11,458 bases of DNA from an uncultured Marmoricola sp. (GTDB lineage: Bacteria > Actinomycetota > Actinomycetes > Propionibacteriales > Nocardioidaceae): NCBI GenBank assembly GCA_937868455.1, contig CALMMO010000210.1, forward strand, positions 1-11,458. Reading direction: 5' to 3'. The notes under the pieces were generated by a model. That model saw nothing but the letters and a program-made list of their open reading frames with translations. It was not told the origin of the DNA and did not search any database. The position numbers were made by a program, and so were the translations under genes. This document shows positions 3,015-11,458 of the stretch, piece after piece. Numbering within the stretch: the stretch's first letter is position 1; each line of letters opens with the position of its first letter.

Positions 3015-3269
3015 GTGACTCAGTTGACGCCATCCGGGGGCCTCGACGTACTCGAAGAAACCCGGACCTATCCGACCGACGCTGGGGATCACGAGCGATT
3101 GGCTCACTACGCTCCCAAAGACAAGATCATGGAAGCCATGGTCAACGGCACACCAGTCGTTGCTTTGTGCGGCAAGGTCTGGGTGCCGAGTCGAGACCCC
3201 AATCGTTTTCCGGTATGCCCAGAGTGCAAGGAAATCTGGGAAAACTTCGAATCAGGAGAAGACGAGTGA
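3015..3269 (+). CDS. DUF3039 small zinc-ribbon-like protein
   Basis: Protein of 84 residues matching what I know of DUF3039, a small actinobacterial family of unknown function. The conserved block runs from DHERLAHY (25-32) through VVALCGKVWVP (48-58) to FPVCPECKEIW (65-75). Cys52, Cys68 and Cys71, perhaps with His31, could hold one zinc ion, so a small zinc-binding adaptor is likely. The last residues (ESGEDE) are acidic. It starts with GTG and is probably leaderless. Its stop overlaps the start of the second protease as GTGA, and the helicase follows by another GTGA overlap. The helicase is thus a plausible partner, but this rests on position alone. Confidence 0.85.
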   Translation: MTQLTPSGGLDVLEETRTYPTDAGDHERLAHYAPKDKIMEAMVNGTPVVALCGKVWVPSRDPNRFPVCPECKEIWENFESGEDE

Positions 3270-4186
3270 AGAGATCAGCAATGTTCACAGCGTTGTTGCT
3301 GGCAGGGGGCGCTCTTATTTCAGCCGCACCTGCTGCTAACGCCCAACCCGCACCGGTGGCTGGCCCATCGTGCTTTACCCCGGCTAAGGCCGCTGGCACT
3401 CACGGACGCCACGGTCGCGACACGCGCCCAGTCACCAAGGCCGTGGCCCTCGAGGTGGATCGCCAACTGAAGACCGCCAAGGTTGCCCGACTCGGGCCCG
3501 TCGAAGTGCCGGTCTACGCCAACATCATCGTGGGCTCCCACGCCGGTGACACTGCTGTCACTGAAACCCAGATTGCTGACACCATCACGGTGCTCAACGA
3601 CGCCTACAGCGGCGGGCAGTCTGCTTCCAACATGAACGCCAACTTCCACTTCACCTTGATGGGCACGCGCACCTACAAGAGCGATCGGGCTTACCACGCC
3701 AACCCTTACAAGAAGGCTGACAAGAAGATGCGCAAGAAGTTGCGCAAGGGCGGCAAGAACGCGCTGAACCTGTACTTCGTGAAGCCCAATGACGGCACTC
3801 TTGGTTGGGCCGCGTTCCCCTGGGAATACAAGAAGCACAAGAAGTGGGACGGCGTCTCGATCAACGTTGACTCTGTCGCTGGTGGCTCAATGGCCGAATT
3901 CAACCTCGGTGACACCGCGACCCACGAGGTGGGCCACTGGCTTGGGCTGTACCACACCTTCCAAGGCGGCTGCGACGTCGACAACGACTTCGTTGCTGAC
4001 ACGCCAGCCGAGGCAGGCCCCAACTACGTCTGCACTGAAGGCACTGACACCTGCGCAGCCGCTGGGCTCGACCCCATCCACAACTTCATGGACTACACGC
4101 CTGACGCGTGCATGAACATGTTTACGTGGGGTCAGACCGATCGAATGACTCGTGCTTGGGCGTACTTCCGCGCCCCAGCGGTGTGA
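3266..4186 (+). CDS. Secreted M43 zinc metalloprotease, paralog 2
   Basis: Second M43 protease of 306 residues, clearly related to paralog 1. It opens VKRSA, has a signal peptide with likely cleavage ANA|Q after residue 26, and continues with the same QPAPVAGPSCFTP stretch as paralog 1. The zinc motif is HEVGHWLGLYH (220-230) and the Met-turn NFMDY has Met275. Its cysteines correspond to those of paralog 1, so disulfides are probably conserved. GTG 3266 is the start: AGGAGA (3253-3258) lies seven bases upstream and the codon overlaps the DUF3039 stop as GTGA. The central region 137-194 is strikingly Lys-rich (for example KKADKKMRKKLRKGGK), where paralog 1 has Arg. An exported protease between two probable cytoplasmic proteins in one operon is unusual. 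Fully intact; its substrate is unknown. Confidence 0.93.
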   Translation: MKRSAMFTALLLAGGALISAAPAANAQPAPVAGPSCFTPAKAAGTHGRHGRDTRPVTKAVALEVDRQLKTAKVARLGPVEVPVYANIIVGSHAGDTAVTETQIADTITVLNDAYSGGQSASNMNANFHFTLMGTRTYKSDRAYHANPYKKADKKMRKKLRKGGKNALNLYFVKPNDGTLGWAAFPWEYKKHKKWDGVSINVDSVAGGSMAEFNLGDTATHEVGHWLGLYHTFQGGCDVDNDFVADTPAEAGPNYVCTEGTDTCAAAGLDPIHNFMDYTPDACMNMFTWGQTDRMTRAWAYFRAPAV

Positions 4187-5964: not shown

Positions 5965-6031
5965 GTCGCTTTGCGGGGAGGATCTCCCCGGTGAAGCGAC
6001 AAAGTCACAGGTTTACTTGTGACTTTTCACC
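5965..6031. repeat. Palindromic two-hairpin repeat, copy B
   Basis: Complete version of the repeat at the left edge, made of two hairpins with no bases between them. The outer hairpin (5965-6000) pairs GTCGCTT with AAGCGAC and CGGGGAG with CTCCCCG, with a small asymmetric internal bulge (TG against GTG) and a GAT loop. The inner hairpin (6001-6026) has a perfect 9-bp stem, AAAGTCACA with TGTGACTTT. Positions 6000-6031 equal 22-53. It fills the gap between the convergent helicase and amidotransferase genes, so a two-way terminator role is plausible; on the plus strand the inner stem is followed by only one more T and then C. It also overlaps the last eight codons and stop of the amidotransferase gene. 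I see no other copy in the window and no nearby transposase. Confidence 0.9.
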
Positions 6032-6730
6032 TAATCCGTTGTGGGCCAAAAACGAATCAACGAGGTCGTAGGCCCGCTGGCGAGCAGCCTCTTCGTTGGC
6101 GATGGTGTCCTCCATCAAAACCGCCGGGTCGAAGCCGGCTTTGACGGCCGCGACATCGCCGCCGTTGCCGAGCCAACCCGCCAGCATTTCGACGGTGAGT
6201 TCGGGGTGAAACTGCACGGCGAGGTGTTGGCGCAACAGATAAGCCTGAGACGCGACCTCATCGCGGGCGATTTCGCGAGCGTCGGGCGGCATGGTCCAGC
6301 AGTCGAAGTGCCACTGGAACCAGGGGCCCTCGGGCACCCAGGAGGGGTCGTCGGTCTCGATGCTGACCCAGCCGATTTCTGGACGTTCGGCCCTAGCGAC
6401 CGATCCTCCTAAGGCAGCAGAGATGAGCTGTCCGCCGAAACAGATGCCCAAGATCGGGATGCCGCGAGCGTCGGCCTCGCGGATGAGGTCGAGTTCGGGC
6501 AGCAGCCAGGAGCCGATGAGGTCGACGTCGTACGCCGACCATGGGGCGCCCATGATGACCACCAAGTCATCGTTTGCCAGTGACGGGAATTGGGTGGTGA
6601 CCCCAGGAGTGGCGAAGCGCTCCGCAGGCACGATCTCGTGATGATCGACGTCGATGCCATGGTGGCGAAGCCGATCACCGATGGGTCCGGGCGGTGAAAC
6701 GTGGTCATGTTGGATGACTAGGGCGCGCAT
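6005..6730 (-). CDS. Class I glutamine amidotransferase (GATase1) protein
   Basis: Stand-alone class I amidotransferase domain of 241 residues, GuaA-like in fold. The nucleophile elbow GICFGGQ carries Cys97, and QFHPE carries His175 and Glu177, completing the Cys-His-Glu triad. IMGAPWSAYD (59-68) probably forms the oxyanion loop. Such single-domain proteins cleave a gamma-glutamyl amide bond. In aniline catabolism a relative (AtdA2/TdnT type) acts on gamma-glutamylanilide, and PuuD acts on a gamma-glutamyl polyamine intermediate. Together with the GS-like gene at the right edge, deglutamylation is a reasonable guess, but a general GMP-synthase-like role cannot be excluded. AAGGAG (6736-6741, minus strand) precedes the ATG by five bases. 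The C-terminal residues 234-241, GEKSQVNL, and the stop are encoded entirely by the repeat. The gene is divergent from the reductase gene. Confidence 0.9.
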   Translation of the reverse strand: MRALVIQHDHVSPPGPIGDRLRHHGIDVDHHEIVPAERFATPGVTTQFPSLANDDLVVIMGAPWSAYDVDLIGSWLLPELDLIREADARGIPILGICFGGQLISAALGGSVARAERPEIGWVSIETDDPSWVPEGPWFQWHFDCWTMPPDAREIARDEVASQAYLLRQHLAVQFHPELTVEMLAGWLGNGGDVAAVKAGFDPAVLMEDTIANEEAARQRAYDLVDSFLAHNGLGEKSQVNL

Positions 6731-6802: not shown

Positions 6803-7762
6803 ATGACACAGCAGACGCTGGTCAGTGAGCGCGAGAGCGACGTGAGAGTCAGCAAGGTCGAAACCGTGGCTGACGATGTTGTCGCTTTGACACTGACCCC
6901 CACGTCGGGCTCGCTTCCGACGTGGACACCCGGAGCCCACATCGACCTACTCCTAGGCGATGACCTCACCCGCCAATATTCCTTGTGCGGATCGCTCACA
7001 GAGCAGGGCAGCTACCAAGTTGGCGTCCTGCTCGCACCTGACACTCGTGGCGGCTCGAAAGCCGTCCACGCGCTCACCGAAGGTCAAACGATCCGCATTC
7101 GCGGCCCGCGCAACCACTTCGCGTTGGTCGCCTCACCCAACTACATCTTCATCGGTGGCGGCATCGGCATCACGCCGATGCTTCCGATGATCGAAGAAGC
7201 CGAAGCCACCGGCGCGAATTGGCAGCTCTACTACGGCGGCCGTTCGCTGGCTTCGATGGCCTTTCGCGACCGTCTAGAGAAGTACGGCGACAAGGTGGTG
7301 CTCGTTCCTCAAGAGACCGACGGCATCTTGGACCTCGAAGCCATCTTGGGTGAGCCGCAAGCAGACACCTTGGTCTACACCTGCGGTCCAGAGCCTTTGC
7401 TGGCAGCGGTCGAAGACAAGTGCCGCACCTGGCCAAGCGCTGCTTTGCATTTGGAGCGCTTTGCCGCGAAGCCGCGTGAGGCTGAGGGCGATGATGAGCC
7501 GTTTGACTTGGTGCTTCAGCGCAGCGGCAAAACCCTCACCGTCGGCGTCGGTGAAACCGCCTTTGACGCGATGCGTGCAGCCGGAGTGAGCGTGCTGGGC
7601 TCCTGCTTGGAGGGCATTTGCGGGACGTGTGAGCAGATTGTCATCGAGGGCGATGTTGACCACCGCGACTCGGTGCTCGACGAAGACGAACGTGAGGCGA
7701 ACGAGTGCATGATGGTGTGTGTTTCCCGAGCCAAAACTCCTGTCATTGTGTTGGATGCGTGA
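6803..7762 (+). CDS. Phthalate-dioxygenase/VanB-type flavin-[2Fe-2S] reductase
   Basis: NAD(P)H-dependent electron-transfer protein of 319 residues with the three-part order of the phthalate dioxygenase reductase family. The flavin-binding barrel contains RQYSL (57-61). The nucleotide-binding domain contains FIGGGIGITPML (116-127) and the YTCGPEPLL segment (192-200). The C-terminal plant-type ferredoxin domain has Cys268, Cys273, Cys276 and Cys306 in the canonical C-x4-C-x2-C-x29-C spacing. All cofactor sites look intact. It would pass electrons from NAD(P)H to an oxygenase. The Rieske-like gene begins at its stop codon and is the obvious partner, but that protein lacks most metal ligands. 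The P450 nearby could be the true acceptor, because CYP116B enzymes are fused to this same reductase type. GAAAGG (6791-6796) lies six bases before the ATG. Confidence 0.93.
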   Translation: MTQQTLVSERESDVRVSKVETVADDVVALTLTPTSGSLPTWTPGAHIDLLLGDDLTRQYSLCGSLTEQGSYQVGVLLAPDTRGGSKAVHALTEGQTIRIRGPRNHFALVASPNYIFIGGGIGITPMLPMIEEAEATGANWQLYYGGRSLASMAFRDRLEKYGDKVVLVPQETDGILDLEAILGEPQADTLVYTCGPEPLLAAVEDKCRTWPSAALHLERFAAKPREAEGDDEPFDLVLQRSGKTLTVGVGETAFDAMRAAGVSVLGSCLEGICGTCEQIVIEGDVDHRDSVLDEDEREANECMMVCVSRAKTPVIVLDA

Positions 7763-8769
7763 TGACGATGAAGCATTCTCCGCTGAACACGTGGTACGCC
7801 GTGGCAACCGCGCACGAAGTCGGTCGCACCCCGCTAGCTCGACAGATCGCGGGCGGACGCATCGTTGTCTACCGTGACTCTCGCGGCGATGCGGTTGTCC
7901 TGGGTGATCGCTGTGTGCACCGCCCGGTTGCCCTCTCTGATGGTCGACTCGACGGCGATGACATCGTGGCTCCGGTCACCGGTTGGCGCTATGCACCTGA
8001 TGGTCGGTGCGTGAGCGTGCCGACGCAGCGAGAGGTGCCTATTGGCGCCGCCGTACGCAGCTATCCGGTGCGTGAAGACGGCAGTTTCGTGTGGGTGTGG
8101 GCTGGTGAGCCCGGCGCGGCCACCTTGCGTCGGCCACCGGCCACCGACTGGCTGCGCGACTCCAACTGGGCCACCTTCGGATCCTCCTGGGAGACCAACG
8201 CAGGTCTGCGCTTGCTGCAGGACAACTTCGCCGACATTTCCCATGTGGCCCAAGTTGACGCAGCGATTGCGCCACCCGTCCTCAGCGGCACCGACCTGCC
8301 GCCCCTAGATGTGTCTGTGACCGAGACTTCGGTTGCGTTCTCACGCCAGTTCGCGCCCGCCCACGTCGGTTCGTGGCAATCACAGGTGATGGGACTGCCC
8401 GAAGATGGGCTCTTTGCCCAACTGGAGGAGGGGGAGTTCGTCGCCCCAGGCCTGTGGGTTGACCGCTGGACAGTGCAGGCCGATCCCGAGCGCACCTTCA
8501 TCTTCACTCACGCGCTCACCCCGATCAGCGACCGGATCACCGGTCACACCTGGTCGGTCAGTCGTAACTTCGCGCTGGGAGCTGCTGCCCAAGGCACGTT
8601 GTTCCCGATCTTCGATGCCTACTACCGACGGGTGAAGGCGATCCTTGAGGGAATGCAGTCGATGATCGACACCGACGGTTACGACGAAGGTGTTGGTCTG
8701 GCAGCCGACGCCGCCTTGGTGCAAGTACGCCGCATCATGGACCGTTTGGTCGCCGACGAGGCCCGCTAG
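7762..8769 (+). CDS. Rieske-oxygenase-like protein with degenerate metal sites
   Basis: Protein of 335 residues related to the large subunit of VanA/dicamba-type Rieske monooxygenases: N-terminal Rieske domain, then a helix-grip catalytic domain. The first Rieske pair is present as Cys51-Val-His53. The second, normally CxxHGW, reads A70-P-V-T73-G-W, so both its Cys and His are missing. In the catalytic domain N155-x-x-D158-x-x-H161-x4-D166 matches N-x-x-D-x-x-H-x4-H, but Asp166 replaces the second iron-binding His. The usual Asp before the late E-x-x-Q helix appears to be Val291. The rest of the protein is full length and shows no stop. It may be an inactive or differently cofactored relative; a paired indel in the second Rieske motif is another possibility. 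ATG 7762 overlaps the reductase stop (TGATG), so translation is probably coupled. ATG 7768 is an alternative. Confidence 0.85.
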   Translation: MTMKHSPLNTWYAVATAHEVGRTPLARQIAGGRIVVYRDSRGDAVVLGDRCVHRPVALSDGRLDGDDIVAPVTGWRYAPDGRCVSVPTQREVPIGAAVRSYPVREDGSFVWVWAGEPGAATLRRPPATDWLRDSNWATFGSSWETNAGLRLLQDNFADISHVAQVDAAIAPPVLSGTDLPPLDVSVTETSVAFSRQFAPAHVGSWQSQVMGLPEDGLFAQLEEGEFVAPGLWVDRWTVQADPERTFIFTHALTPISDRITGHTWSVSRNFALGAAAQGTLFPIFDAYYRRVKAILEGMQSMIDTDGYDEGVGLAADAALVQVRRIMDRLVADEAR

Positions 8770-8887: not shown

Positions 8888-10162
8888 TTAGGCAGGCTTG
8901 ATTGCCACCGGGAACGCCTTGATGCCGTTGACGAAGTTTGAGCGCACGCGCTTGACCTCACCATCGACCTCAATGCTCTTGAGCACTGGCAGCAGCTCTT
9001 CGAACATCAACCGGATCTCCATGCGCGCCAGGTTGTTGCCCAGGCACAGGTGCGGAGAGCCCTTGCCAAACGTCATGTGATCAACGTTGGGTCGGGTGAC
9101 GTCGATGGCGTAGGGGTCAGCAAACATTGACTCGTCGCGGTTACCCGAGGCGAACCACATCACGACCTTGTCGCCTTGCTTGATGTCCTTGCCGCCCAAG
9201 ACGGTGTCCTTGGTCGCCGTACGCCGGAAGTGGTACACCGGTGAGGCCCAGCGCAGGAGCTCTTCGATCGCGCCTGGGATCAACGACGGGTCGGCCTGGA
9301 GTCGACGCATCTGCTCGGGCTGCTCGATGAGACCCAACATCGCGTTGCTGATGGCGTGACGGGTGGTTTCGTTGCCCGCGATCACCAGCAAGGTGAAGTA
9401 CATGTTGAAGTCTTGCTCGGTCATCGGGGTGCCGTCATCGGGCATCCGGTTGGCCAAGATCGAGATCAGGTCGGTGCCATCGCCACCCAGACGCTGCTTG
9501 CGCAGGGCGTTGCCGTAAGCCCACACGTCGAGCACGGTGGGGGAGCGGAACGGCAGGTTCTTGTACTGCTCGCTCTCCTCCGAGCCCATCATCACGCGGG
9601 CAAAATCGGGGTCGGTGTTGCCGACGAACTCATTACCCCACGCGATCAGCTGAGGAGTGTCCTCTGCTGGCACATCGAGCAAGCGAGCCAACACGTTGAT
9701 CGGGAAGTCCGCAGAGATCTCCTCAACGAAGTCGATCGTGCCGCCCTCAGCCTTGGCGAATGCTTCTGAGATGGTCTTGCGCGTTAGTTCACGCAGGAAG
9801 TTCTCGTAGTTTTTCAGCAAATTGCGCGGGGTGAACTCGCGCTGGATCAGCCGCCGAAGAGAGGCGTGCCGAGGGCCGTCGGTCTCCAACAGTGATCGGC
9901 GTACGTCGCGGTCAGCCGGCTCGACTTCCTCGATGTTGACGAACTCCTCGGAGGTGTAGGTCTCCGGGTCGCGGTCAACTTCCCAAATGTCGTCGTACTT
10001 GGTCACTGCCCAAAAGCCGCTGTTGGGTGCGGCTTCGGGGTTCCAGTGCACCGGGTCCTCGGCGCGCAAGGTGTCGAGCTGGGCAAAGCCGCGCAGATTG
10101 GCAAAACCGTCCAGATCAGACAGGTCAACGTCTTCGAGTGCGACTGGCTCGTGGCGAGGCAT
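8888..10162 (-). CDS. Cytochrome P450 monooxygenase
   Basis: Soluble bacterial P450 of 424 residues, complete. The I-helix oxygen-activation motif is AGNETTRH (262-269). The K-helix ExxR is Glu301-x-x-Arg304. The haem loop FGKGSPHLCLGNNLAR (365-380) places the proximal ligand at Cys373. The haem loop and the overall feel are closest to actinobacterial CYP124/125/142-type enzymes, which hydroxylate sterol side chains and fatty acids. That comparison is from memory and does not establish a substrate. The upstream gene on the same strand is GS-like, ending 14 bases before this start, and the ribosome binding site AAGGAAG (10172-10178) overlaps its TAA stop, so the two are one operon. The partner pair recalls mycobacterial secondary-amine clusters, in which the CYP151 gene neighbours a GS-like gene. 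No ferredoxin gene is seen; the reductase at 6803-7762 may supply electrons. Confidence 0.95.
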   Translation of the reverse strand: MPRHEPVALEDVDLSDLDGFANLRGFAQLDTLRAEDPVHWNPEAAPNSGFWAVTKYDDIWEVDRDPETYTSEEFVNIEEVEPADRDVRRSLLETDGPRHASLRRLIQREFTPRNLLKNYENFLRELTRKTISEAFAKAEGGTIDFVEEISADFPINVLARLLDVPAEDTPQLIAWGNEFVGNTDPDFARVMMGSEESEQYKNLPFRSPTVLDVWAYGNALRKQRLGGDGTDLISILANRMPDDGTPMTEQDFNMYFTLLVIAGNETTRHAISNAMLGLIEQPEQMRRLQADPSLIPGAIEELLRWASPVYHFRRTATKDTVLGGKDIKQGDKVVMWFASGNRDESMFADPYAIDVTRPNVDHMTFGKGSPHLCLGNNLARMEIRLMFEELLPVLKSIEVDGEVKRVRSNFVNGIKAFPVAIKPA

Positions 10163-10176
10163 GTTTATTCACTTCC

Positions 10177-11458
10177 TTACAGGTGGTAGGTGTATTCGTG
10201 GAATTCCCAATCGGTGATCCAAGCGTTGAAACGCTCGATCTCATCGCGCTTGTAGGCGACGAACGTGCGCACGAACGTGTCACCCAAAACTTCGGCGAAC
10301 GCGGTGTCTGCCTCGAGGGCATCCAAAGCGGCCGTCAGGCTTGTGGGCAGCATTTCGGCCTTAGTGGTGTCGTAGCCGTAGCCCTCAAGTGCTGCTGGGG
10401 GCTCCAGTTCGTTCTTGACACCCAAGTACGCCGCGGCCAACAGGCCTGCAATCGCCAGATAGGGGTTTGCGCTTGCGTCGCCAAGGCGGCACTCCAGGCG
10501 TGAGGCAGTGCCGCGCTCGGGTGGGATGCGGACCATGGCGCTGCGGTTGTCGAGCCCCCAGTCGATCAGCCATGGAGCCAAGGTGTCAGGACCAAAGCGC
10601 TTGTAGGAGTTGACCGTTGGGTTCGAGAGCGCGGCCAAGGCGGGGGCGTGAGCCAAGATGCCGGCAATGGCGTGGTGGGCAACCTTGGAGAGGCCGTTGC
10701 TCGAGCTGGGGTCGTCAAAGAGCGGCTTGCCGTCATCACTCCACATGGAGAAGTGCAGGTGGAAGCCCGACCCGCCCTCGTCGTTGAACGGCTTGGGCAT
10801 GAAGGTGGCCAACTTGCCCAGGGAGCGGGCCAGTTCCTTGATGGCTGACTTAAACCGGTGGGCGCGGTCGGCTGCATCGAGCGCCTCGCCGTGCCACAAG
10901 TTGATTTCGAACTGGCCTGCTGAGAACTCGTGGTTTGCAGCGACCACTTCAATGCCGTACTCGCCAAGTTGACGCAAGGTGCTGAGCAAGACGTTTTGCG
11001 GGTCGCCCTTGAGGCCAGAGACGTAGACGTTGCCGGTGGCCTCGCCGTAGCGCTGCCAACCAGAGGGTGCGGTGTCTGACTCTTCAAGCACATAGAACTC
11101 GAGTTCGGGGCCAACGATGGGGCTCATGCCGAGTTCGGCGAACTGCTCGACGACACGGCGCAGCACGTAGCGCGGGCTCTCCTGCGAGGGGGAGCCGTCA
11201 GGGTTGAACAGGTCAGCGATGCAGTGAGCGACTCCTGGCTCCCACGGCACGGCTTGCATGGTGGCGACGTCAGGGAAGGCCACGATGTCGGGCAGACCAG
11301 CTGAGAGGCCACCTTCGATGTCGACCACGCCACCTCGTGGGGTGGTGCCATAGACAGAGCGGCAAAAAGCGATGCCTCCCGATGCGGTGCGCTCGAACCG
11401 GTTGACCAGCAAGTCACGGCCGCGATCGGTGCCGATGAGGTCGGCGTATCCGATCCGA
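10177..11458 (-). CDS. Glutamine-synthetase-like amide ligase (N-terminus outside window)
   Basis: The frame is open to the right edge, so the start is not visible; 426 residues are seen and probably a few dozen are missing. The visible part begins RIGYADLIGTDRG, the N-terminal beta-grasp region. Catalytic-domain signatures follow, numbered from the edge: GPELEF (116-121), NHEFSAGQFEIN (175-186), FMPKPFNDEGGSGFHLHFS (219-237), NSYKRFGP (283-290) and RLECRLGDASANPYL (320-334). All main metal- and ATP-binding positions look present. The C-terminus (WEFHEYTYHL) lacks the adenylylation Tyr motif of housekeeping GlnA. It therefore looks like a GlnA-like ligase joining glutamate to an amine, as in PuuA, IpuC or AtdA1, rather than the main glutamine synthetase. 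Its neighbours (P450 downstream, an amidotransferase nearby) support that. The in-frame TTG at 11412 is inside the domain and is not the start. Confidence 0.93.
   Translation of the reverse strand, partial: RIGYADLIGTDRGRDLLVNRFERTASGGIAFCRSVYGTTPRGGVVDIEGGLSAGLPDIVAFPDVATMQAVPWEPGVAHCIADLFNPDGSPSQESPRYVLRRVVEQFAELGMSPIVGPELEFYVLEESDTAPSGWQRYGEATGNVYVSGLKGDPQNVLLSTLRQLGEYGIEVVAANHEFSAGQFEINLWHGEALDAADRAHRFKSAIKELARSLGKLATFMPKPFNDEGGSGFHLHFSMWSDDGKPLFDDPSSSNGLSKVAHHAIAGILAHAPALAALSNPTVNSYKRFGPDTLAPWLIDWGLDNRSAMVRIPPERGTASRLECRLGDASANPYLAIAGLLAAAYLGVKNELEPPAALEGYGYDTTKAEMLPTSLTAALDALEADTAFAEVLGDTFVRTFVAYKRDEIERFNAWITDWEFHEYTYHL

Follow-up and report, generated by a model that had tools for sequence, protein, structure and literature searches.

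The closest described counterparts of the locus analysed here are Rieske oxygenases of the DdmC (dicamba monooxygenase) and VanA type, P450 systems of the CYP116B46 and P450RhF type, and the AtdA and NpaA gene sets for aniline and 1-naphthylamine degradation. A dead redox enzyme retained as a helper is exemplified by the P450-derived glycosyltransferase activators (NCBIfam TIGR04515), in which a dead P450 is kept as the activator of an adjacently encoded glycosyltransferase; in the present case the dead enzyme is a Rieske oxygenase and its neighbour a P450. Among Rieske proteins, incomplete metal sites are described, in the accessible text of two reports, for the two-chain chlorophyllide a oxygenase of Micromonas and for Rieske β-subunits (PMC9615114, PMC12445004); those chains serve a Rieske oxygenase, whereas the protein described below has lost both sites in one chain and has a P450 among its neighbours. 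The accessible text of a 2025 review of the family records β-subunits without catalytic centres and no known self-sufficient Rieske oxygenase, and makes no mention of members lacking both sites (PMC12445004).

The window, i.e., the whole 11,458-nucleotide stretch analysed, from an uncultured Marmoricola sp., is one (no. 210) of the 540 contigs of a 2.5-Mb assembly. It holds a gene, RLK, for a pseudo-Rieske oxygenase, immediately preceded by a reductase gene, RED, and followed by a P450 gene on the opposite strand. RLK shares with DdmC and VanA-type enzymes the fold, the Rieske and VanA_C domains, the length, the bridging Asp and an adjacent reductase gene; it differs in having lost four of seven metal ligands, in having its reductase upstream rather than downstream, and in having a P450 as partner. 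RED is the same kind of reductase module as in the CYP116B46 and P450RhF type, and natural P450-reductase fusions occur among relatives of the locus, but the P450 in the window is unfused and of CYP125/124 kinship, and a pseudo-Rieske protein is added. We propose, giving the idea roughly an even chance, that RLK serves a P450 monooxygenase system as an accessory protein without redox function.

RLK (7762..8769, + strand; 335 aa) was characterized from its translation, Pfam matches, alignment to DdmC and a fold model. Pfam found both a Rieske domain (PF00355, 57.7 bits, cut-off 20.3) and a VanA_C domain (PF19112, 64.4 bits, cut-off 23.5). The translation reads C51-x-H53, A70-P-V-T73-G-W, N155, D158, H161-x4-D166 and V291. 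The Rieske ligand set C-x-H...C-x2-H is incomplete, in that the first pair is kept (C51, codon 7912-7914; H53, codon 7918-7920) while A70 (codon 7969-7971) replaces the Cys and T73 (codon 7978-7980) the His of the second. The 2-His-1-carboxylate iron set is reduced to H161 (codon 8242-8244), with D166 (codon 8257-8259) in place of the second His and V291 (codon 8632-8634) in place of the Asp, all on the + strand. The DdmC alignment pairs A70 and T73 with the Cys and His of the second Rieske pair, D166 with the second iron His, and V291 with the Asp in KEDKVVVEAIE, which we take to be an iron ligand. The preliminary description of a Rieske-like product with only three of seven ligands is thus borne out, those left in the alignments to DdmC and homologues being C51, H53 and H161. 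The framework residues N155 and D158 are retained; D158, whose position is presumably that of the Asp that bridges the cluster and the iron of neighbouring subunits in Rieske oxygenases, is present in all 43 members of the clade described below. C83, the only other Cys in RLK, was considered as a replacement ligand and rejected, as it is not new: it is Cys in 18 of the 20 rows of the window's group and in all six canonical rows.

The best AlphaFold2 model, built on nine sequences, had a mean pLDDT of 75.6 and a pTM of 0.74; the remaining four scored lower (64.2 to 47.7). Its top solved match in Foldseek was DdmC (3gob; TM 0.82, E 1.4e-22). Block means of pLDDT were 78-93 for residues 101-300 and 46-78 for residues 1-100, so that the Rieske and helix-grip fold is predicted to be preserved, with the former cluster region modelled with little certainty.

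RED (6803..7762, + strand; 319 aa) encodes a flavin/NAD/2Fe-2S reductase, the stop codon of which overlaps the RLK start by one base (TGATG), in line with the coupling of the two genes noted at the outset. Its NAD and 2Fe-2S domains lie above the Pfam cut-off, and its FAD domain is at 21.0 bits against a cut-off of 21.1. RED scored 266.6 bits against the reductase domain of CYP116B46 (238.6 for a second entry) and 165.5 against phthalate dioxygenase reductase; it is therefore of the CYP116B/phthalate dioxygenase reductase kind and nearer to the reductase domain of the self-sufficient P450. Homologues of RED nevertheless adjoin three canonical Rieske loci at 51-53% identity (L091, L139, L141) and a fourth at 42% (L027), so that CYP116B kinship alone does not assign RED to a P450. 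An accessory role of RLK beside the P450 is favoured by two other features: RED lies immediately 5' of RLK in every one of the 43 clade rows, the gap ranging from -4 to 62 bp, and the RED and RLK trees are concordant in their main groups. Among the six canonical rows a RED homologue was found downstream in four and was not found in two.

Relatives of RLK were collected from 341 genomes of the family, 29 of which together contain 31 places that score more than 280 bits with the first profile; two named loci were added, from Gordonia asplenii (L031) and Yinghuangia soli (L034), as were ten further places above 360 bits from 394 genomes of the class, where the next-best place scored 266. With duplicate places removed (e.g., L028, L032, L077, L078), the clade, which is actinobacterial, comprises 43 rows (31 + 2 + 10). 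It was compared with a canonical outgroup of only six rows (L027, L091, L139-L142), hand-picked among many. Among 396 genomes sampled from the phylum, matches at E ≤ 1e-75 came from only four: the window's own genome and three of the same class with canonical ligands. The window's nearest relative among the genomes is G023, which has the RLK homologue at 4-996 of an 18,060-base contig. In the tree the 43 clade rows group together (100/100), as do 27 of them that form a subclade (100/99); the placement of L137, L138 and L079, which are on long branches, is uncertain. The suggestion that relatives sharing the change would mark a real branch of the superfamily is upheld by this clade and subclade, and alignment of the ligand sites showed that close homologues do not all keep C-x-H/C-x-x-H and H-x4-H.

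Read at sites 51, 53, 70, 73 / 155, 158 / 161, 166, 291, the residues indicate that the losses of metal ligands are graded across the clade. Five of the six canonical rows have CHCH/ND/HHD, and the other (L140) has Y166. Least changed within the clade are the 16 rows outside the subclade, namely twelve with CHCH/HD/NHD, one each with CHCH/HD/DHD, CHSH/HD/DHD and CHCH/HD/YYD, and one (L137, genome G823) with all seven ligands and H155 for Asn. In the subclade, the iron-Asp site is Val in 27 of 27 rows and the second iron His is Asp, Arg or Ala; all 27 also deviate from C-H/C-H, 21 by loss of at least one Rieske ligand and six by Cys in place of the last His. These six (L080, L081, L130-L133) read CHCC/(N or S)D/QAV, and L079 reads CHDH/ND/HAV. 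In the window's group, the same iron ligands are missing from each of the 20 rows, as is at least one Rieske ligand. The window and G023 have CHAT/ND/HDV; twelve rows from the genus Nocardioides (L025, L033, L067-L076) have DHSS/ND/HDV; and the first four sites are CHAT in L035 and in L029 (which has R166), CHST in L030 and L129, CHSS in L034, and CHCS in L031. H53 is conserved in all 43 rows. L137 (G823:C1), one of the long branches, has RED directly upstream and a P450 gene downstream on the same strand; it may exemplify the stage that preceded the loss of metal. In the six C-H/C-C rows the second pair has become C-x2-C, giving three Cys and one His, which we take to be the ligand set of NEET-type clusters; a natural conversion of cluster type is possible in these rows.

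The RLK gene is under purifying selection, with dN/dS values of 0.10-0.28 in ten pairs; for the reductase, these pairs gave 0.12-0.27. Seventy-three positions are identical in at least 26 of the 27 subclade rows, several of them unlike the six canonical rows. W232, D234, W236 (Phe in L079), F248, Y287, Y288 and V291 are conserved in the subclade and differ from all six canonical rows; W205 differs from all six yet is common to all 43 clade rows. The C-terminal domain therefore diverged and has since been kept constant, a pattern not produced by decay. Local decay or an error in a draft sequence, which the fragmentation of the window's assembly into 540 contigs might invite, was considered and rejected: the 20 rows of the window's group have the losses in open frames throughout, and some of them come from contigs 5 to 6 Mb long. 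As the losses are conserved across rows and the dN/dS values are low, we regard this explanation as refuted and its residual probability as negligible.

The P450 gene of the window (8888..10162, - strand; 424 aa) encodes the haem motif FGKGSPHLCLG, and its best solved relatives are of the CYP125/CYP124 type. The stretch fetched around each RLK was searched for P450s with just two queries, themselves P450s, at a threshold of 60 bits; matches were found in 40 of 43 clade rows and none of the six canonical rows. In eleven rows P450 and RED are joined in a single open frame of 798-810 aa (Pfam was run on one), and RLK follows with a 4-bp overlap; in eight more (L080, L081, L130-L133, L135, L136) the order is P450, RED, RLK on one strand. 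The absence of a P450 from the G023 stretch likely reflects a contig break, for RED-RLK is at the start of its contig and a P450 of 90-91% identity stops 2 bases short of the end of another contig. In G028, likewise without a P450 in the stretch, a P450 is at a second locus with HpaD, HpaG and ALDH genes. G179 has RED and RLK, and genome-wide no P450 matching either query was found at the cut-offs used. Its locus (L161/L085, G179:C2) has the fused type of RED, with RLK, minus the P450 part. Conversely, a P450-RED fusion of the less-degenerate type without RLK beside it is present in G028 (L158, G028:C3, 5064-7451).

Several of these observations count against an accessory role for RLK. Besides the lone RED-RLK of G179 and the fusion without RLK in G028, P450 and RED are separate genes in the window, the P450 gene being convergent with the RLK operon and outside it, and identity between the P450s of the clade's two halves is only ~33-34% where measured. 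A mere tether would be superfluous in rows with a P450-RED fusion. The P450 of the 27-row subclade, moreover, is one among several pathway genes, so that the linkage there is not specific to it. The main reason to associate RLK with the P450 and not with the pathway comes from the 16 less-degenerate rows: P450, RED and RLK occur together in 15 of them, and HpaD or HpaG genes were found in none.

The pathway genes in the window include a glutamine-synthetase-like ligase (10177..11457, - strand, cut by the contig end), a proposed gamma-glutamyl-amide synthetase whose G028 homologue falls below the NCBIfam cut-off, and a class I glutamine-amidotransferase-like protein (6005..6730, - strand; also below the NCBIfam cut-off), a proposed gamma-glutamyl-amide hydrolase. 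In the stretches around the 27 subclade genes, the ligase gene (at least 49% identity) occurs in 25 rows and an HpaD-like ring-cleavage dioxygenase gene in 17; genes for a PuuD-like hydrolase, ALDH, an HpaG-like protein, a permease and the amidotransferase also recur, the NCBIfam matches of the ligase, amidotransferase, HpaD, HpaG, ALDH and PuuD all being below cut-off. Contig 358 of the window's own genome (L148, 3-5233) carries the end of a PuuD-like gene and then HpaG-, HpaD-, ALDH- and permease-like genes. This is the order that follows the ligase gene in L029, in L031 and, on one contig, in G023 (L160), and contig 358 may follow the window. From gene content, the subclade neighbourhood looks like one for catabolism of glutamylated aromatic amines. 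The accessible text of a report on aniline and 1-naphthylamine degradation places ligase, amidotransferase-like, oxygenase and reductase genes together (PMC11335346), as in the window; in those sets the Rieske oxygenase is the catalyst, whereas in the window its relative is dead and the oxygenase is a P450. P450 and glutamine synthetase genes also co-occur among candidates for cyclic amine degradation, according to the accessible part of another report (PMC9477822). The substrate may perhaps be a glutamylated aromatic amine of phenethylamine type, leading to homoprotocatechuate-like ring cleavage; our literature search found no described pathway that matches the gene set of the RLK locus. GlnA-type genes near five of the 16 less-degenerate rows were rejected as pathway genes; they resemble housekeeping glutamine synthetases (one was checked by Pfam, with a type III gene beside it). 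Elsewhere in the window are two tandem, related genes for secreted metallopeptidase-like proteins (1952-2956 and 3167-4186) with the motif HEVGHWxGL, and a small ORF of 84 aa (3015-3269) between them; G023 seemingly has a single copy in the same setting, before a helicase-like gene (L024, 4521-5480).

Next in rank after an accessory role, though rather unlikely, is that RLK uses its helix-grip C-terminal domain to bind and hand on, or to sense, a pathway intermediate, with no special link to the P450. The full set of pathway genes that surrounds RLK in the subclade is consistent with this, as are the new aromatic residues of that domain (W232, W236, Y287, Y288), at which the canonical rows differ; against it, the less-degenerate rows keep P450 and RED in stretches free of HpaD and HpaG. 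Third, and doubtful, comes a metalloenzyme with a rebuilt mononuclear site, in which H161, H250 and H262 with D166 would replace H-H-D and possibly support redox-neutral chemistry. H250 and H262 (codons 8509-8511 and 8545-8547; span 8509..8547, + strand) are, like H161, fully conserved across the window's group (20 of 20 rows), where D166 is present in 19, and both are absent from the other seven subclade rows and the six canonical rows. On the other hand, 13 of the 16 less-degenerate rows likewise have His at position 250, which aligns with H251 of DdmC, so that H250 was not gained together with H262, which is unique to the window's group and aligns with DdmC Y263. The exceptions also speak against such a site: L029 has R166, L079 has H161 without H250 or H262, and the six related C-H/C-C rows, in the same gene context, carry Q161.

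That RLK is instead a structural partner of another, intact Rieske oxygenase is improbable. Such an arrangement has a precedent in the two chains of the Micromonas enzyme (PMC9615114, accessible text), and the window's own genome has three other, weak Rieske homologues; but these are on other contigs and match only part of the protein, at 28-31% identity, and no intact Rieske oxygenase recurs beside RLK in the set of reference genes looked for, which would reveal one only if it were RLK-like. A joint reading, in which the Rieske oxygenase became a dedicated P450 subunit and its emptied site was rebuilt (H161/H250/H262, D166) for metal or substrate, with the intermediates still living, seems to us a long shot; that relatives preserve its steps, from seven ligands through C-H/C-C, C-H/D-H and C-H/S-H to D-H/S-S, is similarly speculative.

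An accessory role in the P450 system therefore remains our first choice. Lacking the residues for a normal Rieske cluster or a 2-His-1-Asp iron, the RLK of the window should not have the usual redox role. Its history may have begun with an active oxygenase of the VanA/DdmC type that, together with its reductase, came to be linked to a P450. The reductase would then have switched to feeding the P450, and in one branch been fused to it; the oxygenase would have lost its mononuclear iron ligands and then, in the window's branch, its Rieske ligands, while selection kept the fold, the bridging Asp158 and the newly aromatic C-terminal domain. By analogy with the fusions in relatives, electrons in the window most likely pass from NAD(P)H to the RED flavin, the RED 2Fe-2S cluster and the P450. 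Co-produced with RED, RLK would bind RED, the P450 or both, or hold the substrate for the P450, and its binding would raise coupling or set specificity; in the window's branch that substrate is probably a gamma-glutamylated aromatic amine. The preliminary description had offered a pseudo-oxygenase acting as scaffold, regulator or ligand binder, a reading that is supported in kind and only in part overall; its alternative, a different cofactor, is at most a possibility. It had missed the P450 as recurrent partner, the kinship of the reductase to P450 fusions, the graded losses, the glutamyl-amide genes, and H250 and H262.

The RLK branch has the fold and descent of Rieske oxygenases, with the defining metal ligands gone. 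Our literature search, which subscription papers mostly fell outside, found no description of pseudo-, degenerate or P450-linked Rieske oxygenases; so far as it reaches, the branch is undescribed as first suggested, although such a negative is weak evidence of absence. Annotating RLK-type genes by domain name would give a false activity. Two metal centres define the Rieske oxygenases, and here is a conserved clade without them that is tied to another oxygenase. The clade offers natural variants, including the three-Cys, one-His type, for testing which Rieske ligands can go, and a test of what a P450 gains from an extra subunit. If an accessory role is true, the clade would plainly exemplify the conversion of a redox enzyme into a helper, with the intermediates still in living genomes.
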